Below are positions 36,277 through 57,898 of a stretch of 64,000 nucleotides of DNA, piece after piece. This DNA is from Azomonas agilis. Lineage in GTDB: Bacteria; Pseudomonadota; Gammaproteobacteria; Pseudomonadales; Pseudomonadaceae. The stretch lies in NCBI RefSeq assembly GCF_007830255.1, contig NZ_VLKG01000004.1, positions 124,001 to 188,000 of the forward strand, in the 5' to 3' direction. Positions within the stretch are counted from its first letter, which is position 1. Each line of letters starts with the position of its first letter. A model generated the notes under the pieces. The model was not told where the DNA came from, ran no database searches, and saw nothing but the letters and a program-made list of their open reading frames with translations. The position numbers were made by a program, and so were the translations under genes.

Positions 36277-36300
36277 AGACCGACCCCTTTCCAGTGGAGG
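36277..36300 (+). promoter_or_regulatory. Shared leader element of the sulfur island, plus-strand copy
   Basis: AGACCGACCCCT at 36277-36288 followed after five bases by GTGGAGG at 36294-36300. The same two blocks, with a four-base gap, precede the minus-strand sulfur operon at 57650-57672. Neither arm occurs elsewhere in the window as far as I could see. It may mark the transcription start and 5' leader of both operons. Confidence 0.6.
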
Positions 36301-36333
36301 TGTTAGCTTTCAACCCCCTTGAAGAGGTCGTGT

Positions 36334-36441: not shown

Positions 36442-36470
36442 AGCAGCCACGCCTTTTCGGAGACACTGCC

Positions 36471-37553: not shown

Positions 37554-37567
37554 GGAAGTGAGCCGCC

Positions 37568-38266: not shown

Positions 38267-38300
38267 CAGAACATTGCCCCAATCCCTAAAGGAGTACCCC

Positions 38301-39161: not shown

Positions 39162-39179
39162 TCCATCGTCACGGAACGC

Positions 39180-39213
39180 GAGCGATCAACGCCTTTTGGT
39201 CGCTCCTGTTTTT
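39180..39213 (+). terminator. Terminator after the TauD gene
   Basis: GAGCGA and TCGCTC pair around a 14-base loop, with extra wobble pairs, and are followed by CTGTTTTT. It separates the OYE-peroxiredoxin-TauD unit from the next gene, though read-through is possible. Confidence 0.65.
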
Positions 39214-39233
39214 AATTGGAAGGAGGGGAATGG

Positions 39234-40583: not shown

Positions 40584-40603
40584 CCTTTCTTGGAGCCCAG
40601 TCT

Positions 40604-41428: not shown

Positions 41429-41539
41429 GGGTTCATCGGTACATTTTTGTACTTACATATAAGTAAAAAGAACTTCACAGTATTTTTTTATAGCATTAGT
41501 GTCTCCCTGCGTGTGCTTTCGATCAATCGGAAACACCTA

Positions 41540-41566
41540 AGCGGCCAGCCTCAAAGGTTGGCCGCT
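41540..41566 (+). other. Hairpin upstream of the flavin monooxygenase gene
   Basis: AGCGGCCAGCC pairs with GGTTGGCCGCT (one wobble) around a five-base loop. It ends 26 bases before the next ATG and has no T-run, so it may stabilise or attenuate the mRNA rather than terminate it. Confidence 0.45.
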
Positions 41567-41592
41567 GGTCGTATTAAGGCTTGGAGAACCCG

Positions 41593-42918
41593 ATGGGCAG
41601 TCCCTCATCACTCAAACTCGGTGTGCAAATTTGCGGCGTTGGTTACGGCTGGGGCGAATGGCGGCACCCGGATGTGCCCGCCGATGCCAGCATCAGCCTC
41701 AATTTTTACCGTCAGCAAGCACAACTGGCCGAGGCGGGTCGGCTGGATTTTCTGTTTATCGCCGATAGCCTGCACATTCACGAGAAATCCAACCCGCATT
41801 ACCTGAATCGCTTTGAGCCCCTAACGTTGCTGTCGGCCTTGGCCACAGTAACCGAGCATATTGGTTTAGTAGCCACCGCCAGCGTCAGCTATACCGAGCC
41901 CTTTAATCTAGCGCGCCAATTAGCTTCTTTGGATCATCTCAGTGGCGGGCGCGCGGGTTGGAATGTGGTCACTTCTTGGCTGTCTGGTACGGCGGATAAC
42001 TTTGGCAAAGCCGAACATCCACCCCATCGGGTGCGCTACTACATGGCCCGCGAGCATTTGAGCGTGGTGAAAGGGCTTTGGGACTCGTGGGAGGACGATG
42101 CCTTTGTGCGCGATAAGCCCAGCGGGGAGTTTTTCCTACCCAGCAAACTGCATCGGCTGGATCACAACGGCGAGTTTTTTCGGGTTAAGGGGCCACTGAA
42201 TATTGCTCGCTCGCCACAAGGCCAGCCGGTGATTTTTCAGGGCGGTACCTCAGTGGAAGGGCGCGAATTTGCGGCCGGTCACGCCGATGTGGTGTTCCTA
42301 AACCCAGAGTCATTGACTGAAGCTCAGTGGCGATACCAAGACATTAAGGGACGAGCCGCATGTTTAGGGCGCAATCTACAGCAGGTGCAGGTACTAGCCA
42401 ATATTCGGCCTGTGGTGGGACGCACCGCCAGCGAGGTAGAGCAACGTTACCAGCACATCTGCCAGTTCATCACTTTGGAAGATGCCTTAGTCACCCTAGG
42501 GCGGCCCTTTAATGACCACGATTTTTCGCGCTATCCGCTGGATGAGCCTTTCCCGGATGTGGGGGATCTGGGGCGTGAACATCTGCAAGGTCACTCCGAG
42601 CACATCAAGCAAGTAGCGCGGGATGAAAAACTCACCTTACGTCAAACCGCATGGCGCTTTGCTTTGCCGCAGCGGGAGTTCACTGGTACTCCAGAACAGC
42701 TGGCGGATCGACTGGAACATTGGTTCCAACAAGGGGCCGCCGACGGTTTTGTGATTAACCCTTGGCCGGGGGGCTTACAGCACTTTGTTGAGCTGGTGAT
42801 TCCTGAGTTACAGCGGCGCGGTCTGTTTCGCCGTGAGTACAGCGGCCACACCCTGCGCGATCATTTGCAGCTTTCCACACCCATCAACCGCTATGCACCG
42901 CGCCGGGAGCTGATTTAA
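41593..42918 (+). CDS. FMN-dependent monooxygenase, NtaA/SnaA/DszA (DmoA) family
   Basis: A 441-residue luciferase-like monooxygenase. LFIADSLHI near the N-terminus, TASVSYTEPFNLARQLASLDHLSGGRAGWNVVTSW, and VIFQGGTSVEGREFAA define the NtaA/SnaA/DszA subfamily, which uses reduced FMN to oxidise sulfones, dimethyl sulfide or aminopolycarboxylates. In this sulfur island an organosulfur substrate is most likely. The ATG at 41593 follows TTGGAG at eight bases. It ends overlapping the stop of the ferredoxin gene on the other strand. No terminator is evident. Confidence 0.9.
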   Translation: MGSPSSLKLGVQICGVGYGWGEWRHPDVPADASISLNFYRQQAQLAEAGRLDFLFIADSLHIHEKSNPHYLNRFEPLTLLSALATVTEHIGLVATASVSYTEPFNLARQLASLDHLSGGRAGWNVVTSWLSGTADNFGKAEHPPHRVRYYMAREHLSVVKGLWDSWEDDAFVRDKPSGEFFLPSKLHRLDHNGEFFRVKGPLNIARSPQGQPVIFQGGTSVEGREFAAGHADVVFLNPESLTEAQWRYQDIKGRAACLGRNLQQVQVLANIRPVVGRTASEVEQRYQHICQFITLEDALVTLGRPFNDHDFSRYPLDEPFPDVGDLGREHLQGHSEHIKQVARDEKLTLRQTAWRFALPQREFTGTPEQLADRLEHWFQQGAADGFVINPWPGGLQHFVELVIPELQRRGLFRREYSGHTLRDHLQLSTPINRYAPRRELI

Positions 42919-43286
42919 TGCTTCTCTAATTCATTCTTGGTTGGCCCCAGCAACACTTTAGCACGCTGGAATACCGAGCCCATCACCCAGTGCCGATTGG
43001 GGTGCTGCCCTGCCCATTCGTCCCAACCGGAATAACGCCGGTAATAACCCAGAGTTCCAGAGGCCTCAGCCGTCTGCTCGTCGATGCCTTCTGGCTGCTC
43101 ACAGTTGGGGCTGACGTATAGGGCATCGCTTGTGCAGTACAGCTCGCACATATAGCAGCTTTGGCAATCCTGCTGGCGGGCAATGGAGGACAGCCCATCT
43201 ACACCTAACTCAAATACCTGCGCTGGGCAGACCTCAAGGCATTTCTGGCAGCCGGTGCAACGGTTGCGGATCACTACTTCGATCAT
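42915..43286 (-). CDS. Two-[4Fe-4S] ferredoxin-type protein with C-terminal tail (AprB-like)
   Basis: A 123-residue protein. CTGCQKCLEVCP and CQSCYMCELYC provide ligands for two 4Fe-4S clusters. A tail of about 55 residues (YYRRYSGWDEWAGQHPNRH) follows, resembling the extension of AprB that wraps round AprA. The ATG at 43286 has AGGAG eight bases upstream and overlaps the flavoprotein stop as ATGA. A longer frame to 43439 runs inside the flavoprotein gene and is rejected. It is the last gene of the 12-gene operon and the predicted partner of the flavoprotein. Confidence 0.9.
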   Translation of the reverse strand: MIEVVIRNRCTGCQKCLEVCPAQVFELGVDGLSSIARQQDCQSCYMCELYCTSDALYVSPNCEQPEGIDEQTAEASGTLGYYRRYSGWDEWAGQHPNRHWVMGSVFQRAKVLLGPTKNELEKH

Positions 43287-44884
43287 GCGGGAACTCCTGC
43301 GGCAGGCTCTGGGCGTACCCATAGCTGATCTAAACCGCCGGTATTCAGACGGTACTGATAGGCCTCCGAAGAATCTGGAATGTCTTGGCGGTAGTGCAGC
43401 CCTCGGCTTTCTGGGCGAGCTAAAGCACTGCGGTAACACCAGCGGGCACTGGCAATCAGGGCGGCGGCTTCGCGGGCTTTGACTTGTTCAGCGCCCTGCC
43501 CTGTTAGCTGTTGTCGCGCTTCTTGCCAAGCCGTCTCTAAACGATCCAAGGATTGATTCAGGCCCACTTCAGTACGGAAGAAGTTTTTATCGAAGGGCAG
43601 CATTTCATCACGCACCTGCGCTACCAAACGTGCGCTTAAACCGGAGTTTTTAGCGGCTGTTTGCGAGCCTAAACCCACCTGTCCTGCGCCATCGGCGGTT
43701 TCGTGCAGACGGCGGCCTTGGCTGAGTGCTTGCTGGGCTAATGCCTGCCCCGCCCAAACGCCAGAAGACAAAGCCCAAGCCGCATTGACTGCACCGCCGC
43801 CGGTATTGGCTCCGGCTACCAGCTCACGGGTGGCTGTGTCACCAATGGCGTACAGTCCGGCCACCAAGGTTTGACAGAATTCATTGATTATGCGTAATCC
43901 TCCCGTACCGCGAATGGTACCCTCGGCACGCAAACTGACCTCAAATCGCTGTTGGTAAGGGTCAAGCCGAGCGCGATTGAACAACAGGGGCACATTGGGG
44001 GAAATCTCCGCCAGTTGACGGCGAATATCTTCCGGCACGCGGTGCAGGCTGCAATACACCGGGCCTTCCAGCAGGGCGGTGGCTAAATCAAAGGTACGCA
44101 CTGAGGGATCGGCCTCGCGTACTGGAGCAATCTCCCGCCCAGAAGCATCGTAGTAGGTGGCGAAGGCGTAGATCATGGCGCGGGTCATGGTGGTTTGGCC
44201 TTGGGCCACGCAGTAGGCGTTGGAAAACTCCATTCCCGATAAATCCGCGTCCACTTCGGCGGCCATCAGCAAACCGTCGCCGGTGTTGTTGCCGCTGCCC
44301 AGCAAGTGGGATTTAAAAGCACAGCCGCCGGTGGCCAAAATCACCCCGGCCGAGCGAATCAACCATTCCCGCTGCTGACGAATTTGCCAACCCCGAGCGC
44401 CGCCTACAGAACCATCGGCGCGAACCAGCAGTTCCAAGGCTGGGCTGTGATCCAAAATCCGCACCCCCGAAGCCAACATGCGCTGACGCAAAGCGCGCAT
44501 GTACTCCGGCCCGCGCAAAGCCGCGTAGATCGGCTGACCTTGCTCGTTACGGGCAAAGTCGTACCAAGGAGCCAGGGTAGGAAGTTGTTGCCAGGTTTCG
44601 GCCAAAATGCGGTGCATCCAGCTTTTATCCGCCAAGCCAAGAGTGGGAACGGCACGGGCATCCACGGCGGCCTCGCGCTGTTCGGGAGCTACCCACCAAT
44701 GGGTCGGGCCTGCGGTGGCGGTCACGCCACTAGTTCCACAGTAGCCCTTATCCACCAAAATCACTTCAGCTCCGGCTTGGCGGGCGGCGATGGCGGCCCA
44801 AGCCCCAGACATACCACCGCCGATAATCAGCACATCCGTATGCAATACGAGACGCTCTTGGGCCTCGCGGGTTTGAATACTCAT
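43283..44884 (-). CDS. FAD-dependent oxidoreductase, AprA/fumarate-reductase-like
   Basis: A 533-residue flavoprotein. IIGGGMSGAWAAIAARQAGAEVILVDKG is the Rossmann FAD motif, GTSGVTATAG binds FAD, and NTGDGLLMAAEVDADLSGMEF and GLYAIGDTA-REL follow. The overall layout matches the adenylylsulfate reductase alpha branch, though this is shorter than dissimilatory AprA (about 620-660). Overlaps of four bases on both sides (ATGA) with the molybdoenzyme and the ferredoxin genes suggest one complex. It may pass electrons between the ferredoxin and the molybdoenzyme, or act on a sulfur compound directly. Confidence 0.88.
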   Translation of the reverse strand: MSIQTREAQERLVLHTDVLIIGGGMSGAWAAIAARQAGAEVILVDKGYCGTSGVTATAGPTHWWVAPEQREAAVDARAVPTLGLADKSWMHRILAETWQQLPTLAPWYDFARNEQGQPIYAALRGPEYMRALRQRMLASGVRILDHSPALELLVRADGSVGGARGWQIRQQREWLIRSAGVILATGGCAFKSHLLGSGNNTGDGLLMAAEVDADLSGMEFSNAYCVAQGQTTMTRAMIYAFATYYDASGREIAPVREADPSVRTFDLATALLEGPVYCSLHRVPEDIRRQLAEISPNVPLLFNRARLDPYQQRFEVSLRAEGTIRGTGGLRIINEFCQTLVAGLYAIGDTATRELVAGANTGGGAVNAAWALSSGVWAGQALAQQALSQGRRLHETADGAGQVGLGSQTAAKNSGLSARLVAQVRDEMLPFDKNFFRTEVGLNQSLDRLETAWQEARQQLTGQGAEQVKAREAAALIASARWCYRSALARPESRGLHYRQDIPDSSEAYQYRLNTGGLDQLWVRPEPAAGVPA

Positions 44885-47172
44885 AGAGCAGCGGTCTCAG
44901 GTTCACGGTAAAAGGCGGGGGGATCGAAGGCTTTAATCTCCGGCAATTCTGCTTCCCAGCGTTCGATATCGACGTAGCAGGTATGGGCGGTGCAGCCTTG
45001 GGACAGGCTGGAAGCGCCCACATCCTCGGTCAGTACATTGGGGTTGCCGTGGATTTCGAGGGTCTGGCTGTCCTTGGCTGACAAAGGGTCATACCAAGCG
45101 CCGGTAGCCAATTGCACCACGCCGGGGCGGATGTCTTGGCTCAGAATCACGCCCGCCAATAAAGCGCCCCGCTCGTTGTACACCCGCACCACGTCACCTT
45201 CGGCAATGCCTCGTGCAACAGCATCTTGAGGATTTAGGGTGATAGGTTCGCGGCCTTGGATTTTTGAGGCACGACTGTAGCCCCCGTGATCGTACTGGCT
45301 GTGGAGGCGGGTTTTGGGTTGGTTAGAAATCAGATGCAAAGGATAGGTCGGGGCCGGTTTTTCCAACCAAAGTGGATGGCCGGGGCAATCGGCGTAACCA
45401 AAGTCGGCGATGCGTTGGGAAAACAGCTCAATACGGCCTGAGGGTGTGGGTAAAGGATGAGCCTCTGGGTCGTTGCGAAAGTCGTTTAGCAGAATGGTTT
45501 GCTGTTCAGGCTTGGCGATCTCAAAGCGACCCTCGGCCCAAAAATCCTCAAAGGAGGGCAAGTGGATGTTCTGTTCTTCAGCACGGGCAAAGGAGTCTTG
45601 GTAGATGTAGCGCAGCCAGTCCATTTCGTCGCGGCCTTCGCTGAAGTCCTCACTAAAACCTAAGCGCTGGGCTAAGTCGCAAAAGATCTGATAATCGTCC
45701 CGTGCCTCACCCACAGGTTCGATGACCTTTTTCATGGCAATCATAAAGCGGTCGGAACTGGCGCTGCCGATGTCGTTGCGCTCTAAAGCGGTAGTAGCGG
45801 GCAACACCACATCGGCATGTTTGGCCTGTGCCGTCCAGTATTGGTCTTGCACAATGATGCTTTGCGGTTTCTGCCAGGCTTGGCGCAGTTGGTTCAGGTC
45901 TTGATGGTGGTGGAAGGCATTACCACCGGCCCAGTAAATCAGCTGAATATCCGGGTAATGTAGATGCTGTCCGTTGTAATCGAAGGGTGCGCCGGGGTTG
46001 AGCAGCATGTCCACAAAGCGCGCCACGGGAATAAAGTCCCGCACCGGGTTTTGCCCCTGAGAAAAGCGCGGCCCGGAGAAGGGTTTACGCCCACTGCCGG
46101 TATTATTCATGCAGCCGTAGCCCACGCCAAAACCGCCGCCCGGTAAACCGATTTGGCCTAATAGCGCGGCTAAAACCACGGTCATCCAAAAGGGTTGTTC
46201 GCCATGACGTGCCCGTTGCAATCCATAAGCCACGTTGATCATCGTGCGGCTGGAGGCCATGCGCCGTGCCAGTTCACGGATGTGCTCGGCGGGAATGTCC
46301 GTCACTGGGGCGGCCCAGTCTGGGGTTTTGGGCTGGCCATCGCTCAGTCCCAACAGATAATCGCGGAAGGGGGCAAAACCCACCGTATAGCGCTCTAAAA
46401 AGGCCTCATCGTGCAAGCCTTCGCTGACCAACACATAGGCTAAGGCCAGCATAAAAGCGGTGTCGCTGCCGGGACGTAGGGGCCACCATTCGCTGTTGTC
46501 GCTTTCCAGATCGCTGCGCAAGGGGCTGATGTTGATAAAACGCACCCCCGCTTGGGTCAGTTGCTCTAAGGCCGGACGCAACAGGTGATCGCTGGCTCCA
46601 CCGGGGCTGTTCTGGGCGTTTTTGATCGGCAAACCGCCAAAGGCTACAAACAGCTCGCAGTGTTCGGCCAAATTATCCCAACTGGTATGTTGGGACAGCA
46701 ACCAATCCATCGGCGCGACGATGTGCGGCATTAGCACCCGCCCCGCACCGAGACTGTAGGTATCCACACTGTACACATAGCCGCCAAAGCCATTCAAAAA
46801 ACGGTGCAATTGGCTTTGCGCATGATGAAAACGCCCCGCGCTAGCCCAGCCGTAACTGCCGCCAAAAATAGCTTGATTGCCGTATTGGTGGCGCACGCGT
46901 TGTAACTCAGCGGCGACCCAATCCAAGGCCTGATCCCAACTCACTTCCACAAAGGGCTCTTGGCCTCGGCGTTCTGGGTGACTGCCGGGGTTTTCCAAGG
47001 CGCTGCGGCGAATAGCCGGGCGACGAATACGGCTGGGCGAATCAATGGCTTCGGGTAAAAATAGGCCGATGGGCGAGGGATCCTGATCCCATTCTGCCGC
47101 TAACATGCCTTCTAAGCGGCCATCGCGTACCTGTGGGCGGTATACACCCCAATGCAAAGCGGTATAGCTCAT
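44881..47172 (-). CDS. Molybdopterin oxidoreductase of the BisC/DMSO reductase type
   Basis: A 763-residue molybdenum enzyme similar to biotin sulfoxide/TMAO/DMSO reductases. HWGVYRPQV at the N-terminus and GGSYGWASAGRFHHAQSQLHRFLN, where the Ser is the expected Mo ligand, are typical. There is no N-terminal Cys cluster and no Tat signal, so it is cytoplasmic and lacks FeS, like BisC. It should bind bis-MGD and reduce an S-oxide or N-oxide. BisC needs external reductants; the adjacent flavoprotein and ferredoxin may play that role. It follows the solute-binding protein by 25 bases. Confidence 0.9.
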   Translation of the reverse strand: MSYTALHWGVYRPQVRDGRLEGMLAAEWDQDPSPIGLFLPEAIDSPSRIRRPAIRRSALENPGSHPERRGQEPFVEVSWDQALDWVAAELQRVRHQYGNQAIFGGSYGWASAGRFHHAQSQLHRFLNGFGGYVYSVDTYSLGAGRVLMPHIVAPMDWLLSQHTSWDNLAEHCELFVAFGGLPIKNAQNSPGGASDHLLRPALEQLTQAGVRFINISPLRSDLESDNSEWWPLRPGSDTAFMLALAYVLVSEGLHDEAFLERYTVGFAPFRDYLLGLSDGQPKTPDWAAPVTDIPAEHIRELARRMASSRTMINVAYGLQRARHGEQPFWMTVVLAALLGQIGLPGGGFGVGYGCMNNTGSGRKPFSGPRFSQGQNPVRDFIPVARFVDMLLNPGAPFDYNGQHLHYPDIQLIYWAGGNAFHHHQDLNQLRQAWQKPQSIIVQDQYWTAQAKHADVVLPATTALERNDIGSASSDRFMIAMKKVIEPVGEARDDYQIFCDLAQRLGFSEDFSEGRDEMDWLRYIYQDSFARAEEQNIHLPSFEDFWAEGRFEIAKPEQQTILLNDFRNDPEAHPLPTPSGRIELFSQRIADFGYADCPGHPLWLEKPAPTYPLHLISNQPKTRLHSQYDHGGYSRASKIQGREPITLNPQDAVARGIAEGDVVRVYNERGALLAGVILSQDIRPGVVQLATGAWYDPLSAKDSQTLEIHGNPNVLTEDVGASSLSQGCTAHTCYVDIERWEAELPEIKAFDPPAFYREPETAAL

Positions 47173-47197
47173 GCGGTATGGACTCTCTCAAATAGGG

Positions 47198-48190
47198 TTA
47201 CGACCAAAATCCCTTCACCCACAGCGGGCGTACATCCAAGCGCTGACTCAGCACTCCTGCCTCATGGAACAGGTCGGCTACGGCCTGTTGGGAGGCAATG
47301 GCTGAATCGTCCACCGGAATCAAGCGATAGGGCTCGCTTTGGGCGCGGAATTGGTCGAGGAATAAAGAGGCATCCAAGCCGGTGATTTCCGAGCTGCGCT
47401 TGGCCCATTGCTCTGGGTTAGCCTGAATCCAATCCCAAGTGCGCTGTTCGAGGGCCAAATAATCCTGAATAGCGGCCACCTTGGCGGCGTCTTCCAATAC
47501 GGAGGTGCGGGCGGCAATCACATAGTTACCGGACAGATAGCCCAAGCCTGTTTTTAGGACTCGTGCTTGGAGCCGTGCTAACGCAATGCGAATGTAAATG
47601 CCGTAAATTACCCACGCATCCAACTGACCGCTTTGGAAGGCGGAAAAACCATCCTGTGGCGTTAAACCGACCGGAGTGATATCGGCAAAGCTCAACCCCT
47701 GCTCTTTGAGGGCTTTGATCAGAAAATAATGGGCGGTGGTGGAGCGCACAAAACCCACCCGCTTGCCCTTAAGGTCAGCCAAGGATTGGATTTTGGAATC
47801 CTTAGGCAACAGGATGGCCTGATTACTGTTCACATCGCCGCGCAGCACCGCAATCAGCTTGATCGGCGCTTGGCTTTGGATGGCAAAGATGGGCGGAATC
47901 TCACTCATGCTGCCGATGTCCAGACTGCCCCCCGACAGGCCCTCGACAATCAAGTTACCCCCTGCCATTTCTGCGTGCTTCACCTGATAGGGATTAGGCT
48001 TTAATCCAGCATCGGCAAAAAAGGACGAAGCCTGTCCTTTATAGGTACCCACGTTGAGCAGCACTTTGGACAGGTCCGGCTGATTGGGCGCGGCTAACAG
48101 ATTCCAGCGTCCAGTTAGGGTTGCACCCAGCAGCAGAGAGCCACCCAGTACCAAGTCGCGCCGCCCAAGATTCAAGATTGTTTTAGACAT
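47198..48190 (-). CDS. Sulfonate/nitrate-type ABC solute-binding protein with Tat-like signal
   Basis: A 330-residue SsuA/TauA-type binding protein. The N-terminus LGRRDLVLGGSLLLGATLTG has twin arginines and a hydrophobic core. The mature part has MSEIPPIFAIQSQAPIKLIAVLRGD, the LKGKRVGFVRSTTAHYFLIKAL hinge region, and FQSGQLDAWVIYG. The Met at 48190 is preferred to one at 48232. It lies between the TonB receptor and the molybdoenzyme and has no dedicated permease next to it; the SsuBC-like pair at 52081-53718 may serve both binding proteins. Confidence 0.88.
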   Translation of the reverse strand: MSKTILNLGRRDLVLGGSLLLGATLTGRWNLLAAPNQPDLSKVLLNVGTYKGQASSFFADAGLKPNPYQVKHAEMAGGNLIVEGLSGGSLDIGSMSEIPPIFAIQSQAPIKLIAVLRGDVNSNQAILLPKDSKIQSLADLKGKRVGFVRSTTAHYFLIKALKEQGLSFADITPVGLTPQDGFSAFQSGQLDAWVIYGIYIRIALARLQARVLKTGLGYLSGNYVIAARTSVLEDAAKVAAIQDYLALEQRTWDWIQANPEQWAKRSSEITGLDASLFLDQFRAQSEPYRLIPVDDSAIASQQAVADLFHEAGVLSQRLDVRPLWVKGFWS

Positions 48191-48201
48191 GGAATATCCC
48201 C

Positions 48202-50769
48202 TCAAAAATCGTAGGCCAGCTTGGTGTACCAAGCGCCGCCACCGGGGTGGAAGGGCGCATCGCCGTACATGGCTTGGCTGCCGTTAGCATTGCGCACGCC
48301 GTTTTTATCCGGGCGTACATCAAAAATATTGGTGCCGCCGACACTCACCGTCAGGCTGTCCATAAAGGTGTAGGAAACGTCTAAATCGGTGATCCATTTG
48401 TCGCCAAACTTGCGATCTTGAGCGGCGTTCTGCTGCCAAGTCTCCACTGAGCCATAGCGGGTATGCATCAAATTGACGATGTAATTACCCACCGTCCAAT
48501 TCGCCCCCAGCATCAACTTGGTGTGGGGCGAAGCGGCTACTAAAGTACCCTCAGCGGCATGGCCAATCAGGGTAATCCCAGAACCTAAGTTGCTTAAGGC
48601 TGGCGCTTTACGGCTACGAATGGTGGTGTTATTCCAGTTAAAGCCCAGCGTCCAACGCACTTCTCCAAATCCAAACTCGGTGAAATCAGTAGTGTGATCA
48701 GCCACCAGATCCACGCCTCGGGTGCGGGTATCGAAGGCGTTGGTGTAGAAGCTGGCCCAAGTGGTACGCGCCAGACCGTTGGCGGCCAGAATATCGCCCA
48801 AAGCGCCATTGCCCCCAGAGCGGTCGTACAGGTTTTCCGACAGGGCAATGCGGTCGTCCACGTCAATGACGTAGGCATCCAGAGTGACGTTAGTGCGCGG
48901 CGTAGGTTGCCAAGTCAAACCCAAGCCCAGATTTTTGGTGCGCTCGGACTTGAGTTCTCCACCACCCAGCGCAGTGGCCAGAGCACTATCCGGTTTCACC
49001 GTTTTGCGCAGAGCCGGAACCACATTACCGTTGGCATCCACCGCCGTCCGGTTATCGGTCACACTGTAGCCAATCTGGGTCAGAGAGGGCGCGCGATAGC
49101 CCGTACCAAAGTTACCCCGTACCGCTAAGGTGTTGGTCAGTTCATAGCGCGAGTTAAGGTTAAAGCTGAAGTTCTTCTTCTGATCCATGTCGTCGAAGTG
49201 CTCCAGCCGTCCGCCCAAGCCCACCGACCAACGCTTGGTAGGCCGCAAGTTGACACTGGCATACAGCGCCGTGGTATTGCGCTGCTGATCGGCTTCATCC
49301 TCGGGGCGGATGGTGACAGCGGCCTGCGCACCCACCGCCGGCTGTCCGGTATAAGCCGTGTATAAAGGGTTGAGGGAACCATTGGCCAAATATTGCGGAT
49401 AAGTATAAGGCCCCACAGTGTAGGCCTTGGGGTCGCCATCAAAGGTGCGAAAGCGCTCCCAGCGGTTTTCGATGCCTGCCTCAATGTCTACCGGGAAATT
49501 TAACAGCGGGAATTTTTCCACCGTCCCTTTAACATCGAAGTTGGTCGAGTTTTGCTCAAACTGAAAAGTCGCTAAATCATCAAAAGAAGTGGGAGACTCA
49601 GGCCCATAGGTGGGGTTAATAGTCAGGTCGCTGGAGTGCTGATTACGGTTGCGGCCATAGGTATTACTAAAATCCCAGTCCCAGTTGGATACACTCCCTT
49701 TAACCCCAAGCAAGAATTGGTAGTCCTCATCCTGAATATTATTCAGTGGGAAATAACCATCAGGAAATAACTCTGGGATAGAGGCATTGCCATTGGGAAG
49801 ACGTTTGTTATTCAGTGCTTCGGTACGGCGCTCTCCATAACTGCCGTAGGAATAAAAGCGGGTGTAATCTGTAAGAGCAAACTCGGTGTTATAAGACCAA
49901 TTATAGGCCTTGATTTTGGGATCACCGTTTTTGATCGCTCGATGATCCCAAGTTGCTTGGCGGGCATCATCAAAATAGGCCCGATAGTTGGGATCAGCCT
50001 TATCCAACCAATAGGCCATGCCGCGTTTACGGGCATCCAGCGAAACTTGTAGAAAGCCATCCTCACCAATGGCAAACCCGGTATTGCCTTCGAATTTACT
50101 GGTTTCACCCATGCCCGAATACAACTGGCCGTAGCTGGTTCCCACATGGGTGCCTGAGGGCGAGGAGCGCAAAATAATGTTAATCACCCCGGCGATGCCG
50201 TCCGCGCCGTATTTGACCCCGGCCCCATCGCGCAAGACTTCGATACGCTCCACAGCGGCAATAGGGATCATGTCGATGTCCACCGGGTTATGACCGCTGT
50301 TATCGGTAGAGCCACTGGCCGGAACCGAGCTGTTATGGCGGCGCTTACCGTTGACTAACACCACGGTATAGGCCGGGTTCATGCTGCGGTTATTCAGGGG
50401 CCGGACGTTGGATTGATAACCGGCCATGTTGGTACCGAAGTTAAAGGACGGCAGCAGCTTGGAAATGGCTTCTGAAAGTTCGGCGCGTCCGGTTTTCAGC
50501 AGTTGTTCGGCACTGATGATGTCTACCGGCGTGGGGCTGTCCACCACCGTGCGCAATTGGGTACGGCGCGTATCTTCCGCCGCCGCTGCCGAACGTTTCG
50601 AGCTGACGGTTACGGTTTCTAACTGAGTGTCCTTACTGCTGTCCTCAGCTAAAGCGCAGGCCGAGGCCAGCATAAATCCTGACAGGGGTAATAAACTCCA
50701 GGTTTTAAATTTAAAGGGTATTAAATAGCTACTCGGTACACTTTTCCTATAACGCTCAACACTTAACAT
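48202..50769 (-). CDS. TonB-dependent outer membrane receptor
   Basis: About 855 residues. A signal sequence ends near ACALAED. A TonB-box-like LETVTVSS follows, then the plug domain (VDSPTPVDIISAEQLLKTG, VLRDGAGVKYGADGIAGVINIIL) and a 22-strand-type barrel ending in YTKLAYDF with terminal Phe. Its long early loop and overall layout resemble receptors placed with sulfate-ester and sulfonate genes. The start is uncertain: 50769 (GGGG upstream) or an upstream codon at 50814. It probably imports a bulky organosulfur compound across the outer membrane. Confidence 0.9.
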   Translation of the reverse strand: MLSVERYRKSVPSSYLIPFKFKTWSLLPLSGFMLASACALAEDSSKDTQLETVTVSSKRSAAAAEDTRRTQLRTVVDSPTPVDIISAEQLLKTGRAELSEAISKLLPSFNFGTNMAGYQSNVRPLNNRSMNPAYTVVLVNGKRRHNSSVPASGSTDNSGHNPVDIDMIPIAAVERIEVLRDGAGVKYGADGIAGVINIILRSSPSGTHVGTSYGQLYSGMGETSKFEGNTGFAIGEDGFLQVSLDARKRGMAYWLDKADPNYRAYFDDARQATWDHRAIKNGDPKIKAYNWSYNTEFALTDYTRFYSYGSYGERRTEALNNKRLPNGNASIPELFPDGYFPLNNIQDEDYQFLLGVKGSVSNWDWDFSNTYGRNRNQHSSDLTINPTYGPESPTSFDDLATFQFEQNSTNFDVKGTVEKFPLLNFPVDIEAGIENRWERFRTFDGDPKAYTVGPYTYPQYLANGSLNPLYTAYTGQPAVGAQAAVTIRPEDEADQQRNTTALYASVNLRPTKRWSVGLGGRLEHFDDMDQKKNFSFNLNSRYELTNTLAVRGNFGTGYRAPSLTQIGYSVTDNRTAVDANGNVVPALRKTVKPDSALATALGGGELKSERTKNLGLGLTWQPTPRTNVTLDAYVIDVDDRIALSENLYDRSGGNGALGDILAANGLARTTWASFYTNAFDTRTRGVDLVADHTTDFTEFGFGEVRWTLGFNWNNTTIRSRKAPALSNLGSGITLIGHAAEGTLVAASPHTKLMLGANWTVGNYIVNLMHTRYGSVETWQQNAAQDRKFGDKWITDLDVSYTFMDSLTVSVGGTNIFDVRPDKNGVRNANGSQAMYGDAPFHPGGGAWYTKLAYDF

Positions 50770-50875
50770 AGCAACCCCAGAGACAGGTAATCCCCGTCGA
50801 TTCAATGAGATCAATTTAATAAATTGGATGAATAATTTAATTATCGAGATAAATCTAAAGCGCTAGTTATTCGGA

Positions 50876-51937
50876 TTAATAACCCGTGGTACTTAAATTA
50901 GTTGGCTGAGTTAATCCCGAACATTCCGGCCCTTGCTCACTAAATATATTTTTATCCGCTAATAACTGGGTATTAATCGCATGGGGAAATATTCCTTTAG
51001 CTACGAATAAATCATCAACATCCTGTAAGGTCTGCACATCCTGATCGGTGACGGGACGTACAATCTCATCCCCCCAAGAACGCAAGCGCTTGGAAACATT
51101 CAGCGGCACGGAGTTAGCTGTTGCAAAAATCTGGGCATATTCTTCTGGGTGTTTTTGTGCCCAATCAAAGGCTTGGCTAAGGCGAACCAATACATCACTC
51201 AACGCGCAGCGTTTTGAAGGGTCAGCCAGAGCCGAATCGGCAGCGGTAATAAAGCCTAAACCACTGTTAATGCCTTCCCCATGAATCAGCACCCGAGCAC
51301 CGGCCTCTTCAGCAAAGGCTTGGTAAATACCAAAAGTGGCCCAAGCCTCAATTTGTCCGGCATTAAAGGCGGCTAAGGCATCCGTAGGTAATACAAACCC
51401 AACATTGACTTTTTGCTCATCCACACCTGCCTGCGCTAAAGCGCGAATTAGCAAGTATTGAGCAATACTGCCCCGAGCTGAAGACACCACCACATTACGG
51501 CCTTCTAAGTCTTTAAGACTGTGAATGGGGGAGTTTTCCGGCACCAAAATGGCAATGCTGCGCCCAGTACCACTACGGGAGGCGATGATTTTCAGCGGTG
51601 TGGCTCCGGTAGCTGCTGCTAATACCGGAGTATCTCCCGCAGGTGCTAAATCTACCGCTCCTGCGCGTAAGGCTTCGAATAAAGGCGCTGCGCCTTGGAA
51701 ATTAGCCCATTCAATACGATAAGGCGTGTCTTTTAAGGTGCCTGCGGCCTCTGCAACCGTAAAAAGAATCTTAGATTGATCTCCTAGGCGCAGGGTTAAC
51801 TGAGACCAATCCCTCTGCTGAGTATTTGTTTTAGCAGGAGTATCCGTATCAGAACATCCGGCTAATGCCGTACATAAGGCAAGGGTTAAATACCGATATC
51901 GCCACCTCATATAATAAGCCTTACTTAAGCGCATCAT
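50876..51937 (-). CDS. Lipoprotein ABC solute-binding protein, aliphatic sulfonate type
   Basis: A 353-residue SsuA/TauA family protein. The N-terminus has a lipobox LAGC with Cys28, so it is probably membrane-anchored. LRAGAVDLAPAGDTPVLAAATGATPLKIIASR and LEGRNVVVSSARGSIAQYLLIRALAQAG are typical of sulfonate binders, as is FNAGQIEAWATFGIYQAF. Three in-frame Met codons are possible; 51937 has GGGA at seven bases. It lies 143 bases downstream of the ATPase gene and is the natural partner of the ABC pair. Confidence 0.88.
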   Translation of the reverse strand: MMRLSKAYYMRWRYRYLTLALCTALAGCSDTDTPAKTNTQQRDWSQLTLRLGDQSKILFTVAEAAGTLKDTPYRIEWANFQGAAPLFEALRAGAVDLAPAGDTPVLAAATGATPLKIIASRSGTGRSIAILVPENSPIHSLKDLEGRNVVVSSARGSIAQYLLIRALAQAGVDEQKVNVGFVLPTDALAAFNAGQIEAWATFGIYQAFAEEAGARVLIHGEGINSGLGFITAADSALADPSKRCALSDVLVRLSQAFDWAQKHPEEYAQIFATANSVPLNVSKRLRSWGDEIVRPVTDQDVQTLQDVDDLFVAKGIFPHAINTQLLADKNIFSEQGPECSGLTQPTNLSTTGY

Positions 51938-52080
51938 TAAAAATTCCCATTTAAACGCAAAAAAATCCTTAGCCTCTAACTCATAAGTTATGAGGCTATG
52001 CTGCATATATATTGATGAACGAGTGCCTTATTTAAATAAACTTACTGAGATCATAGTTATCCGTAAGTTTTAAATACTAT

Positions 52081-52887
52081 TTAACCATTAGCGACTCGAC
52101 GTAACTCTGCGTGCTCTATTGCCGCTTCCTGTAGGGCATGGCTTGCGGAGGTTTCAGGAGCGACTGCCGTCACCTGAACGCCCAATAAACTCAATAGATG
52201 CTTACGCAGCGCCTGAAAACCGGCTTGGCTGCTGTCCCTAGGTCGAGCTAGGGGAACGGAAGCGGCTTCGGCGATGCGGCCTTCTTTCAGTACAATGATG
52301 CGATCCGCCAGCAAAATGGCCTCGTCTACATCGTGAGTAACTAGTAACACCGCCGGGGTGTGGGCTTGCCAAAGGTCGATAATCAGCCGGTGCATGCGGA
52401 TACGGGTTAGGGCATCCAAGGCGGCAAAGGGCTCATCCAGCAATAAGAGTTTAGGTTCGCGCACCAAACCCCGTGCCAGAGCTACCCGCTGAGCTTCGCC
52501 CCCAGACAGAGTAGCGGGATAAGCATTTAAACGATGACTCAAACCCACTTCGGTCAGAGCTTGAATGGCCAACTCCTTGGCATTGGGTGCGCGCACGCCT
52601 AAGGCCACATTGCGCCAGGCTTTTTTCCACGGCATTAAGCGCGGCTCTTGGAATACAGCGGCGCGCACTTCGGGTACGGCTAAATGGCCGCCGTCCAGCC
52701 GATCCAATCCAGCTAAGGCACGCAGTAGGGTAGTTTTCCCCGAGCCGCTGGCCCCAAGCAGGGCCACAAACTCGCCGGGGGCAATGTCTAAATCCAAACC
52801 ATCAATGACGCGATTAGGGCCAAATTGGCGTACCACTTGCCGCAGGCGCACCGCCGGTTCGGCAGGGGAAGAAAGCCGCTGTGTCAT
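52081..52887 (-). CDS. ssuB: ABC transporter ATP-binding protein, sulfonate/nitrate type
   Basis: A 268-residue ATPase. Walker A GASGSGKTT at 45-53, signature LSGGEAQRVALARGL, Walker B LLLLDEPFAALD, and the switch His in LVTHDVDEA. It has the short form typical of SsuB/TauB. It begins three bases after the permease stop, and with the permease and lipoprotein it forms a complete importer for an aliphatic sulfonate or sulfate ester. Confidence 0.9.
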   Translation of the reverse strand: MTQRLSSPAEPAVRLRQVVRQFGPNRVIDGLDLDIAPGEFVALLGASGSGKTTLLRALAGLDRLDGGHLAVPEVRAAVFQEPRLMPWKKAWRNVALGVRAPNAKELAIQALTEVGLSHRLNAYPATLSGGEAQRVALARGLVREPKLLLLDEPFAALDALTRIRMHRLIIDLWQAHTPAVLLVTHDVDEAILLADRIIVLKEGRIAEAASVPLARPRDSSQAGFQALRKHLLSLLGVQVTAVAPETSASHALQEAAIEHAELRRVANG

Positions 52888-52890
52888 GGT

Positions 52891-53718
52891 TTAATTCCTG
52901 ATAAATGAAGGCCGCCATGCCAGAGCAAAGCGCTCCAACACCCGGATGATTCCATCAATGAGCAGCCCCAAAAGGCTGTAGATCAACAGGCAGATGACGA
53001 TCACATCGGTACGCATAAAGTCGCGGGCATCGCTGGCTAAATAGCCCAGTCCGGCCGAGGTGTTGATTTGCTCCACAAACACCAGCGCCAACCAGGAAAT
53101 CCCCAGCGAGTAACGCAGGCCCACAAAGAACGAGGGCAATGCACCGGGCAAAATAACGTGCCAAATCAGCTCGCGTCGGGTTAAACCCAGCGTCTGTGCC
53201 GCCTCAATCAGCTTAGGATCAATGTTGCGAATCCCAGCAAACAGGTTCAGGTACACCGGAAAGGTGGTGCCCATCACAATCAGGGCTACCTTGGTAAATT
53301 CACCGATACCAAACCAGAGAATAAACAGCGGAACCAATGCCAAAGAAGGAATGGTGCGCAACATCTGCATGGGAGAATCCAGCAGAATTTCACCCCGCCG
53401 CGACAACCCAGCCACCAGTGCTGCCGCCGTGCCAATACTGACACCGATGAACAGCCCCAAACCGGCTCGCTGTAGGGAGGTCAACAGATGCCGCCCCAGC
53501 TCACCGCTGGCGATCAGCGTCCACAGGGTTTCGGCGATGGCACTGGGCGCGGCGATGATGCGCGCTGGAATCAAACCCGCGCGTGAAGCCAGCTCCCAGA
53601 GGCACAAAATCACCAAGGGGCTGATCAGGCGTAGGACGAAATCCGGGGTCTTCCATGGGCTCCGTCGCCATGCCCAAAGAGGGCTAAGGCTTAAGGGTTT
53701 AACATTCTGTTCAGCCAC
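52891..53718 (-). CDS. ssuC: ABC transporter permease, sulfonate/nitrate type
   Basis: A 275-residue inner membrane permease with about six helices and the EAA loop EAAQTLGLTRRELIWHVILPGALPSFFVGLRYSLG. LISPLVILCLWELASRAGLIP at the N-terminus is usual for SsuC. It belongs to the same unit as the ATPase (three-base gap) and starts 30 bases after the class II aldolase gene. Confidence 0.9.
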   Translation of the reverse strand: MAEQNVKPLSLSPLWAWRRSPWKTPDFVLRLISPLVILCLWELASRAGLIPARIIAAPSAIAETLWTLIASGELGRHLLTSLQRAGLGLFIGVSIGTAAALVAGLSRRGEILLDSPMQMLRTIPSLALVPLFILWFGIGEFTKVALIVMGTTFPVYLNLFAGIRNIDPKLIEAAQTLGLTRRELIWHVILPGALPSFFVGLRYSLGISWLALVFVEQINTSAGLGYLASDARDFMRTDVIVICLLIYSLLGLLIDGIIRVLERFALAWRPSFIRN

Positions 53719-53748
53719 GGGTGATTGCTCCTGGGTAATCCTAAATAC

Positions 53749-54549
53749 TTAACGGCGGTAGCCATCGCCTTGGCGTTCCAGCAGACGAATCAAAGCATCC
53801 CAATGGCGCTGGGTGATGGGCTGCTCAGCCTCTTCAGGGCGCTCAGTCTGGCGGCGTACCTTGTCGATGGCATCCTGAGGTGCAAACAGCAAATCGGTAT
53901 TGCCCCCTGATTGCGCCGCGATCTGGATATTGCAGGCGTATTCCAATACATGCAGGCGGCGGAAGGCTTGCTCTACAGTACTGCCTCCAGCCAACAGACC
54001 GTGATTGCGCAGAATCAGCAGGCTTTTATCCCCCACATTGGCAATCAGACGATCCTGTTCTTCTACATCCAGCACAATGCCTTCGTAGGTGTGATAGGCC
54101 ACACGACCGTAAGAGGCCAAAGCGTGTTGGGACAGCGGCAACAAACCCTCTTTTTGCGCGGAAACGGCGGCCCCGTCACGGGTATGGGTGTGCAAAATAG
54201 CGCGCAAATCCGGACGCACCCGATGCAGGGCGCTGTGAATCACATAACCGGCTTGGTTAATGCCCAGCTCCAAGGGGTCTTCAATCACGGTGCCATCGAT
54301 GTCAATTTTCACCAGATTGGAGGCGCTGACTTCATCAAACAGCAGGCCGAAGGGGTTAATCAGGAAATGTTCTTCCTTACCCGGAACCCGCACCGAAAAG
54401 TGGGTGTAAATATGATCCGTCCAGCGAAACAGGGCGGCCAATCGATAGGCTGCGGCCAATTTAACCCGCACCTCCCATTCATCAGCAGGGATGTGAGCGG
54501 GGCGAGCGCTGGCGGCTTGTTCATTAATGTGGCGGTTTAAGGCGGTCAC
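53749..54549 (-). CDS. Class II aldolase/adducin family protein (copy A)
   Basis: A 266-residue protein. RVKLAAAYRLAALFRWTDHIYTHFSVR at the N-terminus, the metal-binding LHTHTRDGAAVSA and RNHGLLAGGSTVEQAF, and NPFGLLFDEV are typical of the aldolase II/adducin fold. Members include fuculose-phosphate aldolase, MtnB and decarboxylases. It follows a second, divergent member by 21 bases, and the ABC permease comes next. It may cleave or dehydrate the carbon part of the imported compound. Substrate not predictable. Confidence 0.87.
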   Translation of the reverse strand: MTALNRHINEQAASARPAHIPADEWEVRVKLAAAYRLAALFRWTDHIYTHFSVRVPGKEEHFLINPFGLLFDEVSASNLVKIDIDGTVIEDPLELGINQAGYVIHSALHRVRPDLRAILHTHTRDGAAVSAQKEGLLPLSQHALASYGRVAYHTYEGIVLDVEEQDRLIANVGDKSLLILRNHGLLAGGSTVEQAFRRLHVLEYACNIQIAAQSGGNTDLLFAPQDAIDKVRRQTERPEEAEQPITQRHWDALIRLLERQGDGYRR

Positions 54550-54570
54550 GGTGGTAGTCCTCTGTTGGGG

Positions 54571-55416
54571 TTAATCCAAAAAGTCTGGTTCTTGGCGCAG
54601 TACGCGATCCCAAAACGGCAAGAAGCTGGCCCAGTTGGCGTACTCACTGCCGGTTAAAGCCGCCGTGCGTTCGGCGACTTCCGGGCGAATCAATTGCGGA
54701 GTTCCGGCGGCTTCGGCCAGAAGCTGGGCTTGGGCGGCGTTTTCAAAAGCGATGTAGCGCCAAGCCGCGCCCTCAACGGTTTGAGCTACAGTCAAATGAC
54801 CGTGGTTTTTCAGAATCACTGCTTTACGGTGGCCAATGGCTTCGGCAATACGGCGGCCCTCGCTGTTTTCCAACACCACTCCGGTGAAGTCATCAAACAG
54901 GGCGTGATCCTGATAGAAGGCGGTGGAGTCTTGAGTGAGCGGGTCAAGCAAGCGGCCCAGAGTTGACCAGCTTTTGCCGTATAAGGAATGGGAGTGGGCG
55001 GCAGCGTTTACTTCTGGGCGGGCTTTGTGCAATTCCGAGTGAATGGCAAAAGCGGCTTGGTTCAGGAAGCCTTCCCCTTCCACAATCTCGCCCGCGTGGT
55101 TGACCAACAACAAATCCGACACCCGAATATGCCCAAAGTACACACCGTGGGGGTTGACCCAAAAATGATCCTTAAACTCAGGGTCGCGCACGGTGATGTG
55201 ACCCGCGCTGCCCATATCAAAGCCCAGCCACGCAAACACCCGAAAGGCAGCAGCCAAGCGCTGTTTACGGTACAGGCGCTCCTCGGCCAATGTGGCTTGC
55301 TGGGGCGGCTGTTGCCAACGCTGTCGCACCGTACCTTCGCGGGCCAAGCTATAAGCGCTGGGTTTTAAGGGTGTTTTGTAGGAGACGGGACGTAAAACAC
55401 TTACGGAAGAGGTCAT
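54571..55416 (-). CDS. Class II aldolase/adducin family protein (copy B)
   Basis: A 281-residue protein with RLAAAFRVFAWLGFDMGSAGHITVRDPE, NAAAHSHSLYGKSW (metal His residues), ILKNHGHLTVAQTVEGAAWRYIAFE, and FWVNPHGVYFGHI. The N-terminal 50 residues are extended and Arg/Gln-rich. The ATG at 55416 has GGAAT at eight bases, and an earlier start at 55443 is less likely. It shows only family-level similarity to copy A, so the pair are not a recent duplication. Two such enzymes in one operon may form a hetero-oligomer or act in sequence. Confidence 0.87.
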   Translation of the reverse strand: MTSSVSVLRPVSYKTPLKPSAYSLAREGTVRQRWQQPPQQATLAEERLYRKQRLAAAFRVFAWLGFDMGSAGHITVRDPEFKDHFWVNPHGVYFGHIRVSDLLLVNHAGEIVEGEGFLNQAAFAIHSELHKARPEVNAAAHSHSLYGKSWSTLGRLLDPLTQDSTAFYQDHALFDDFTGVVLENSEGRRIAEAIGHRKAVILKNHGHLTVAQTVEGAAWRYIAFENAAQAQLLAEAAGTPQLIRPEVAERTAALTGSEYANWASFLPFWDRVLRQEPDFLD

Positions 55417-55432
55417 GGCAAGATTCCTTAAT

Positions 55433-56374
55433 TCAGTAACCACGCTGGCGGTCGACGGGATACAGCAAAGGTTGTCCAGTTTTAAAACGCTGGAGGTTGT
55501 CTAAAAAGCGCTCAGCGATACGACGCTGACCCAGCGTGGAAATCCCCGAGGTATGGGGCGAAATCCGTACCCTAGGATGCAGGTAGAGGGGATGCCCATC
55601 CGGTAGCGGCTCAGGATCAGTAACGTCCAAGGTGGCCAGCCCCAAGCGTTCGCTGTCCAAGGCTTCCAACAGCGCGGAGTGATCCAGCAGCGGCCCACGG
55701 GCGATGTTGATCAGATGCTGCCCCGGCTTGGCGTGGGCCAACAAGGCGCGCCCCACTAAGCCTCGGGTTTCTTCGGTGAGGGGCGCGGCAATCACCAGAT
55801 GATCGGCGCGGGCGAACAGTTCCTCTAAACTGGCAGCGGTTTCCACCCCAGCTAGCTCAATAAGTTGCTTGGAGCGGCGGCTGGCAATCACCTGCATGCC
55901 TAGGTGCTGCGCCTGCTCGGCCAAATGCTGTCCAATGCTGCCAAACCCCAAAATACCCAGCGTGCTACCGCGCACGGGCGTCTGAGGTATAAAACTCCAG
56001 CGCGAATCCTTAACCCACAGCTCAGGGATACGCTTGGTGGCGGAAAAAATCGCCGCCAGTACATACTCGACGATGGCCTCAGTGGCCGTACCCTGAGCAC
56101 TGGCTACCGGGCGCTGAAACAGCCATTTTGGATAGGCATCAATGCCCGCCGAAGAAAGCTGTGTCCACTGCACCTGAAAGGGCCAGCCCGCTGGCGGCTG
56201 TGGCTGGCTGAGTCCGCGAATTTCGATGGGCCGCACCAAGAGCGCTGCTGTTTGTTCCGGTAATTTCGGCAACAAACCCAGTGTAATGCCGATGACCTCG
56301 TCCTGCGGCAACTGGCTCTGCAAAAACCGATTCGTGGCCTCGTCCAACTGGCTGGCAATCAACAGGCCGCTCAT
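55433..56374 (-). CDS. D-2-hydroxyacid dehydrogenase
   Basis: A 313-residue D-2-hydroxyacid dehydrogenase. NAD motif GFGSIGQHLAE, catalytic Arg in INIARGPLLDHS, Glu in VTDPEPLPDGHPLY, and His in RISPHTSG, as in the GhrA/GyaR group. The start overlaps the acyl-CoA dehydrogenase-like stop as ATGA, so translation is coupled; a longer frame to 56455 is rejected. It may reduce or oxidise the 2-oxo/hydroxy acid left after desulfonation. Confidence 0.88.
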   Translation of the reverse strand: MSGLLIASQLDEATNRFLQSQLPQDEVIGITLGLLPKLPEQTAALLVRPIEIRGLSQPQPPAGWPFQVQWTQLSSAGIDAYPKWLFQRPVASAQGTATEAIVEYVLAAIFSATKRIPELWVKDSRWSFIPQTPVRGSTLGILGFGSIGQHLAEQAQHLGMQVIASRRSKQLIELAGVETAASLEELFARADHLVIAAPLTEETRGLVGRALLAHAKPGQHLINIARGPLLDHSALLEALDSERLGLATLDVTDPEPLPDGHPLYLHPRVRISPHTSGISTLGQRRIAERFLDNLQRFKTGQPLLYPVDRQRGY

Positions 56375-57570
56375 ACAGCAGGACTCGCGGCAAAGGCCTG
56401 TTTGCCCACGGAGGAAAACACCACATCGTCCTGAGGTGTATGTACCCGCGCGCAAAGCACATCGCGGTAGTGGCGCTCCAGTGGAAATTGACGCGATAGA
56501 CCGGGATTACCCGCCGCCTCCACCGCTAAGGACACCGCTTCAATAGCATTTTGGGTGACTAGCTGTTTGATTTGCCCCGCATGCTGAGCGGGCACCTGTC
56601 CCGCCGCCGCGTTATCCAATAGCTGACGATTGGCAAACAGCAGCGTATCAATACGACCTACGGCCTCCTGAAAGCGTGGCAAGCTGGACAGCGGTGCGCC
56701 CAAATTGGACGGTGTACGCACTTGCAACCAGTTCACCAACCAATCCCGTGCCGCAATAGCAATCCCATCGTACAGAGACGACAACAGCACCGACATCCAC
56801 AGCGCGCCCTGCGGATCAAACTCCGGGGTAGGGGCACTCCAAGGGCTGACGCTCACCGCATGATCCAGCGGCACGCGAACCCCTGAAAACTCGACCTTAT
56901 GGCTGCATGTAGCGCGCATGCCCAAATGATCCCAGTCCTCGACGATACGAATACCGGGGGTGTCCTTGTGTACCAACCAAGCACCGACCAGAGGATCAAC
57001 ATCATCACTGCGCGCCCAAACCAGATACCAAGTCACGCCAAAGCTGCCGGTGGAATAGATTTTGCTGCCGTCAATAATCCAGCCTTCGGGGGTACGGCGG
57101 GCAATAGTGGCCGGAAGTCCGCCGCGTACTGGTGTTCCTAATTCGGGCTCCACGCGGAAAGCATTAATCAGCGCCCCCTCAAGTACGGCTTCGCGGCTCA
57201 CTCGTAAGCGCAAATGCTCCGGCCAGCGCGTGTTGAACTGCAAACGGTGCAAATGCAGGTATTGCATGACCAAGATCAGTGCTGTCGAAGGCTCACCCTG
57301 TGCCACGGCAGAAATCACCTGACGGGCTTCAGTCAAATTGGCTTCTGCACCCCCTAATTCTTTGGCTACCGTTAGGCCCAACAGGCCCCGCTGCTGCAAC
57401 AGGCGGAAATTTTCCCAAGGGAAGTCACTGCTGCGATCCAAATCAGCAGCTCCTGAAGCCAAAATAGGGGTCAATTCAGCCAGTGTGGCCGCCAGATCGC
57501 TAATACCGCGATGTAGGGGGCTGATGTTGCTGGCGGTCAGCGCGCCGCCTGTCTGCACAGAAAAACTCAT
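56371..57570 (-). CDS. Acyl-CoA dehydrogenase-fold flavin monooxygenase, DszC/SfnC-like
   Basis: A 399-residue member of the acyl-CoA dehydrogenase fold. The N-terminal helical domain has GLLGLTVAKELGGAEA, and the middle domain has GWIIDGSKIYSTGSFGVTWYLVWA and DWDHLGMRATCSHKVEFSGVRVP. It lacks the usual catalytic Glu context and the CoA-binding motifs, and it resembles DszC/SfnC enzymes that use reduced flavin to oxygenate sulfur compounds. First gene of the 12-gene operon; its ribosome site AAAGG can be paired by leader sequence. Function inferred from family and context. Confidence 0.87.
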   Translation of the reverse strand: MSFSVQTGGALTASNISPLHRGISDLAATLAELTPILASGAADLDRSSDFPWENFRLLQQRGLLGLTVAKELGGAEANLTEARQVISAVAQGEPSTALILVMQYLHLHRLQFNTRWPEHLRLRVSREAVLEGALINAFRVEPELGTPVRGGLPATIARRTPEGWIIDGSKIYSTGSFGVTWYLVWARSDDVDPLVGAWLVHKDTPGIRIVEDWDHLGMRATCSHKVEFSGVRVPLDHAVSVSPWSAPTPEFDPQGALWMSVLLSSLYDGIAIAARDWLVNWLQVRTPSNLGAPLSSLPRFQEAVGRIDTLLFANRQLLDNAAAGQVPAQHAGQIKQLVTQNAIEAVSLAVEAAGNPGLSRQFPLERHYRDVLCARVHTPQDDVVFSSVGKQAFAASPAV

Positions 57571-57596
57571 GGGCTACCTTTGCTTTGAAAAAGCGG

Positions 57597-57641
57597 TTAC
57601 GGAAGCCTGGGCGGACAGCAAGGTGGAAGTAGGCTGAACAC
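57597..57641 (-). CDS. Cys-Cys leader peptide candidate (cysteine attenuator)
   Basis: A GTG-started 14-residue frame, MFSLLPPCCPPRLP, with GGAGG eight bases upstream. It carries tandem Cys codons (TGC TGT) at positions 8-9 and ends 26 bases before the first gene of a sulfur-acquisition operon. Downstream, GGCTTCC (57607-57601) can pair with GGTAGCC (57578-57572), enclosing a GCTTT-TTC-AAAGC hairpin and burying the ribosome site AAAGG of the first gene. A ribosome paused at the Cys codons would reach into this stem. It is too short for standard gene callers. Confidence 0.6.
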   Translation of the reverse strand: MFSLLPPCCPPRLP

Positions 57642-57649
57642 CCAGATAG

Positions 57650-57672
57650 CCTCCACCTAGAGGGGTCGGTCT
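57650..57672 (-). promoter_or_regulatory. Shared leader element of the sulfur island, minus-strand copy
   Basis: On the minus strand AGACCGACCCCT is followed after four bases by GTGGAGG, which supplies the ribosome site of the Cys-Cys leader. It matches the copy at 36277-36300. Its position between promoter region and leader suggests a common transcription start and 5' end. Confidence 0.6.
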
Positions 57673-57674
57673 TT

Positions 57675-57691
57675 TAAGAACCGTATTCTTA
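57675..57691. promoter_or_regulatory. Operator-like palindrome in the divergent sulfur promoter region
   Basis: TAAGAA-CCGTA-TTCTTA is a perfect six-base inverted repeat with a five-base centre, directly upstream of the shared leader element. Two more repeats lie in the same gap: TTGGTTA/TAACCAA at 57716-57741 and AAACTTAT/ATAAGTTT at 57859-57878. Candidate regulators are CysB/Cbl-type proteins, inferred. The gap 57642-57975 otherwise holds no gene except short leader frames. Confidence 0.45.
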
Positions 57692-57898
57692 TGTTTTAGC
57701 TCTGTAAAATTCTTTTTGGTTATTAACTAATTATTAACCAATCACATTTTTAGTCATTCAAAAAATGCAAAAAAATTATTTTAAGCCGCGCAGGCTCCAG
57801 CATGGCTCTGTACAGCGCACGGCTCACCGCCTTTTTTTATAAAAATAAAAAATAATATAAACTTATTTCTATAAGTTTTTTGCATATACATTCGCCCT

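Follow-up and report, generated by a model that had tools for sequence, protein, structure and literature searches.

Does the short, cysteine-containing open reading frame in front of a large organosulfur operon of Azomonas agilis sense cysteine supply, or is it part of a different kind of control element? The window, that is, the whole stretch of 64,000 nt that was analyzed, contains on its minus strand a cluster of 12 genes (42915–57570) that had been predicted to form a sulfur operon, and the gene content bears this out. The first gene (56371–57570) encodes an SfnB-like acyl-CoA-dehydrogenase-type oxidoreductase (TIGR04022, 117 bits, which is under the cutoff). It is followed by genes for a 2-hydroxyacid dehydrogenase, two class II aldolases, an SsuC/B/A-type transporter and a TonB receptor, and further by those for a second SsuA, a molybdopterin oxidoreductase, a flavoprotein and a ferredoxin.

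The leader of Azomonas agilis and its close relatives

Direct reading of the minus strand upstream of the cluster reveals a short ORF of 14 codons (57597–57641; putative translation MFSLLPPCCPPRLP), as described in the original prediction. It starts with GTG at 57641, has the tandem Cys codons TGC TGT at 57620–57615 and ends with TAA at 57599–57597, and a GGAGG motif is located 8 nt 5' of the GTG. The first gene of the operon has its own Shine-Dalgarno (SD) motif, AAAGG, at 57577–57581. Short ORFs that combine an SD motif with tandem Cys codons are uncommon, yet a few dozen are expected per genome: they were found in 3 of 262 gene upstream regions of the same contig and in 7 of 3000 dinucleotide shuffles of the A. 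agilis UTR. The same genome also has a second SD-led short ORF with tandem Cys codons, which ends in PPCCIANDS and precedes an MFS-type transporter gene (C4:200885, minus strand).

The ribosome-binding site of the short ORF had been called strong, but it is predicted to be buried. It forms one arm of a hairpin (57621–57658) in which AGGTGGAGG (57658–57650) pairs with CTTCCACCT (57629–57621) over 9 bp, with an inner CTGG/TCAG pairing, and its predicted unpaired probability is at most 0.16 per base. The hairpin is kept in two homologous leaders, one in Azotobacter vinelandii, before the same SfnB-like gene, and one in Azomonas macrocytogenes, before a class II aldolase gene; for both of these closest relatives, the unpaired probability is about 0. 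Thus, the supposed leader SD is predicted to be nearly all paired in all three leaders. Common to the three are also a 5' hairpin and the motifs GACCGACC and AGGTGGAGGC. The free energies of the long hairpin are −17.7, −24.9 and −21.4 kcal/mol, with an alifold z of about −6. A search of 85,000 species genomes with the exact W-type pattern yielded real matches only in A. vinelandii and A. macrocytogenes. Two further pairings were considered and rejected: a pseudoknot formed by the inner loop and CGCCCAG, for which the partial match in the relatives is not outstanding, and a long-range stem from the strand after the hairpin to the main SD (alignment columns 73–77/121–125), which is common to the three sequences at P 0.04.

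The short frame itself is conserved less well. A. vinelandii has AUA at the position of the start codon, and the frame continues into the gene. A. macrocytogenes does have an ATG and tandem Cys codons, albeit at codons 15–16 rather than 8–9 as in A. agilis (chance P about 0.045), and the stop codon of this short ORF overlaps the next start. Substitutions are conservative in this frame only, which is no more than suggestive of coding; a coding test of the conserved hairpin gave P 0.17. A stem proposed to cover the ribosome site of the first operon gene is indeed present in A. agilis, where GGCTTCC (57607–57601) lies opposite GGTAGCC (57578–57572) with 6 of 7 pairs and GCTTT/AAAGC nested within. 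However, it is poorly conserved, with 4 of 6 pairs in A. vinelandii and 5 of 6 in A. macrocytogenes (where the alignment is uncertain), and the nested hairpin is lost.

A two-block RNA element in the Pseudomonadaceae

A weak model match in A. vinelandii, with the same 5' half as the leader and a different 3' arm, was the first sign of a wider family. Searches with a CCGACC-N-GGTGGAG pattern, with a stricter form of it in 398 genomes of the Pseudomonadaceae, and with a sequence-only model in 35 genomes yielded many matches; filtering left 41 distinct members, distributed over Pseudomonas and Azotobacter relatives with as many as five in one genome. Many of these members are close homologues and unevenly related, so that the counts given here are not independent. 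Among the 35 genomes, which were chosen within the Pseudomonadaceae rather than drawn at random, 29 had a match at E 0.05 or better, with no more than five each. Matches of an earlier model, R1, in the order sample fell mostly in coding sequence and were set aside.

All members contain two near-invariant blocks, CCGACCCC and GG[U/C]GGAGG, spaced by 4–7 nt. Block 1 reads CCGACCCC in 38 of the 41 members and CCGACCAC in the other 3, and block 2 reads GGTGGAGG in 24 and GGCGGAGG in 15. This invariance is in part due to ascertainment because most members were found by patterns or models holding both blocks; four were found without the later patterns, namely L049, L055 and L060, which have GGCGGAGG (model R1), and L157 (model R2). 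In the A. agilis leader, block 1 (57662–57669) is located 4 nt 5' of block 2 (57650–57657, GGTGGAGG), and the two are separated by a UCUA loop (57658–57661) at the position that is occupied by the anti-SD sequence in other members. Block 2 is the very sequence that had been taken for the ribosome site of the short ORF. The window contains a single instance of the full two-block pattern, and shuffled sequences contain none.

Organosulfur mRNAs carry the element either close to their 5' end or in a gap between two genes of the operon, and several members, often three, can lie on one strand of a single sulfur island, 5–7 kb apart. The downstream genes encode SsuA-type sulfonate-binding proteins, SsuD-type and DmoA-type monooxygenases, TauD-type dioxygenases, TonB receptors, AprA-like flavoproteins and class II aldolases, as well as the SfnB-like protein in A. 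agilis. Of ten proteins that were scanned with Pfam, two, an aminotransferase and an amine oxidase, are encoded by the next long ORF after an element and are perhaps not direct targets. Altogether, the 41 members represent a conserved 5'-UTR RNA element before functionally related, mostly organosulfur, genes.

A second member is present in the window, on the plus strand at 36280–36329, with the sequence CCGACCCC-TTTCC-AGTGGAGG. Here, GACCCCTT (36282–36289) lies opposite AAGAGGTC (36322–36329) with 7 of 8 pairs, which cover the SD of a short ORF at 36334. This copy is also matched by model R3 at E 6.5e-5, and it belonged to the set from which that model was built. On its 3' side lies a second organosulfur cluster (36429–42918, plus strand); according to inspection of the translations, its genes encode an OYE-type flavoprotein, a peroxiredoxin, a TauD-type dioxygenase, an MmgE/PrpD-like protein, a nitroreductase-like protein and a DmoA-type monooxygenase. 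The short ORF at 36334 (plus strand, MPNVPVSAQRFNRPISP..., about 35 codons) is placed between the element and the OYE-type gene. A further copy, with 86% identity, was found on the Pseudomonas antarctica plasmid pP27494_1 (L281, 14001–14072) before a stretch without a listed gene; it adjoins type III secretion genes and an IS30 transposase and adds little.

The RNA family appears to be undescribed: no Rfam 15 family matched at the gathering cutoff and none at relaxed thresholds, and searches of the open-access literature turned up no account of the two blocks or of a similar element. To our knowledge, CCGACCCC and GGYGGAGG are not the blocks of any riboswitch class.

Putative competing folds at the Shine-Dalgarno sequence

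In 22 of the 41 members, a helix of 6–10 bp joins the strand around the blocks to the SD of the next ORF (helices were counted if they had at least 6 bp and included an SD with a start codon after it). Each of these 22 helices shares 2 nt or more with one of the two blocks, and the same bases would thus be used twice, so that the SD helix and a putative pairing of the two blocks would be mutually exclusive. For the 11 members tested first, in which the search for helices was limited to the element and the last 22 nt ahead of the start codon, the longest helix had 7–9 bp, with P from 0.001 to 0.07 each compared with shuffled downstream sequence. In the member L210, the longest helix is formed by block 2 with its own 3' arm, and the SD helix has 6 bp. 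A broader test, which allowed any helix to the next 50 nt, gave 18 of 41 members at P<0.05; among these are eight distinct helix sequences, such as GACCCCTGA/TCAGGGGTC, CCCTCGCA/TGCGAGGG, TCTCCGGT/ACCGGAGA and CTCCAGGCGG/CCGCCTGGAG; in a control with the upstream 45 nt, none of the 41 members had a helix at P<0.05. The anti-SD:SD helices were part of none of the search patterns. Because different helix sequences share the same pairing logic, these helices point to selection on RNA pairing. As the two blocks are almost constant in sequence, covariation lends no support to a duplex between them.

The remaining 19 members, the A. agilis leader included, have no clear anti-SD:SD helix. In A. agilis, block 2 pairs with the 3' arm CTTCCACCT instead (9 bp), and the ACCUU of this arm would be able to pair with AAGGU of the SD of the main gene.

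Taken together, the family is found before organosulfur genes, with covarying anti-SD:SD helices that overlap its blocks, and looks like a translational switch. The A. agilis leader is probably a variant member of this cis-regulatory RNA family of the Pseudomonadaceae. In about half of the members, the strand through or between the blocks would act in the OFF state as an anti-Shine-Dalgarno sequence and mask, by pairing, the SD of the ORF that follows. In the ON state, the blocks would pair with each other (CC/GG, tandem G·A, C–G, CC/GG) and the SD would be freed. The A. agilis leader may work as an inverted switch, in which the pairing of block 1 with block 2 would free the CTTCCACCT arm to cover the main SD (ACCUU/AAGGU). 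The short Cys-containing ORF would be at most a local addition that uses block 2 as its SD. The block duplex, the direction of switching and the type of signal, which may be a sulfur metabolite, a protein or a small RNA, are what this model infers beyond the observed helices. The original prediction is in good agreement with these results in its general idea, namely that an organosulfur operon is controlled after transcription through a buried ribosome site.

Tentatively, and with somewhat less than even confidence, the element can be envisaged as a new riboswitch class that would sense a sulfur metabolite (e.g., cysteine, sulfide or a sulfonate-derived product) and gate organosulfur translation across the Pseudomonadaceae. 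Sulfur-starvation control in Pseudomonas is usually described as transcriptional; a widespread switch of this kind would cover ribosome sites in transcripts for sulfonate transporters, monooxygenases and receptors and thereby add a post-transcriptional layer. The element is small, has two fixed blocks and is represented by many natural members, so that its signal is open to direct tests. Translational riboswitches such as SAM-II, preQ1 and SAH have SD-containing hairpins or pseudoknots, and the element resembles them in being a short 5'-UTR RNA with conserved blocks in which, in the standard form, the next gene's SD would lie in a helix that excludes another fold. Unlike these riboswitches, the element matches no Rfam model.

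Alternative explanations and the adjoining promoter

As a sub-case of the switch, the element may be real but serve as the target of a trans-acting small RNA or RNA-binding protein. Two short, near-invariant blocks with varying partners are what such a factor needs, whereas the SD-overlapping folds would be enough for switching in cis, and we regard a trans-acting partner as somewhat unlikely.

Control by a cysteine-responsive leader peptide, in which shortage of Cys-tRNA would stall the ribosome on the tandem Cys codons and thereby open the ribosome site of the operon, is considerably less probable. The SD at 8 nt, the GTG and the tandem Cys codons of A. agilis, the ATG and tandem Cys codons of A. 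macrocytogenes with the overlapping stop and start, and the conservative substitutions all speak for it, as does the precedent of polycysteine leaderless short ORFs that regulate mycobacterial operons (Canestrari et al., 2020, cited in PMC9031893 and PMC9094748). In the open-access literature, the mycobacterial ORFs are the closest described regulatory case for such a peptide and share with A. agilis a short Cys-containing ORF ahead of a sulfur-related operon; by comparison, the A. agilis ORF is not leaderless, its start region is predicted to be buried, and neither ORF nor Cys codons are kept in the family. Indeed, 39 of the 41 members have no tandem Cys codons and 33 have no start codon 4–12 nt past the supposed SD. 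Because tandem Cys codons are present in only 2 members (those of A. agilis and A. macrocytogenes) and any start codon in only 8, the family as a whole cannot function through the peptide. Together with the AUA of A. vinelandii, the SD that is predicted to be buried, the P of about 0.045 for A. macrocytogenes and the poorly kept stem and nested hairpin, this leaves at most a peptide with a local use that may have been added in Azomonas.

A T-box mechanism was rejected. In principle, block 2 might recognize the UCCA end of tRNA-Cys through its UGGA, as in translational T-box RNAs. However, the UGGN match to the tRNA acceptor end is lost in the 15 members with GGCGGAGG, where the block reads CGGA, no specifier stem was seen, and there is no Rfam match.

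It is very improbable that the blocks are a DNA operator adjoining a sulfur-starvation promoter, with incidental RNA folds: the fairly constant distance of about 40 bp between the promoter element and CCGACC in many members would suit an operator, but the anti-SD:SD helices covary, the wobble pairs of A. macrocytogenes preserve RNA pairing while breaking DNA symmetry, and the element is not a promoter operator because the operon-internal members L049, L055 and L060, by direct reading, come after the stop codon of a preceding gene and lack the promoter element.

The promoter-like element of A. agilis, TTTTACA-N14-GAATACGGT, is located at 57680–57709 on the minus strand. The exact pattern was found in 27 of the 398 family genomes, compared with 1 match for a reversed control pattern, and the same genes adjoin it in relatives. 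In the form TTTTACA-N14-GAATANGGT, whose upstream part is AT-rich and conserved, it precedes organosulfur genes, often without the RNA element. Behind the same promoter, several loci (L105, L110, L118, L124; L106, L109, L113, L117) have conserved Cys-free short ORFs of 20–29 codons, for example MPRTQPSTFPNGFVYRRAAR. The terminal TGA of these ORFs overlaps the ATG of a lipoprotein-like gene, suggesting that the two may be translationally coupled.
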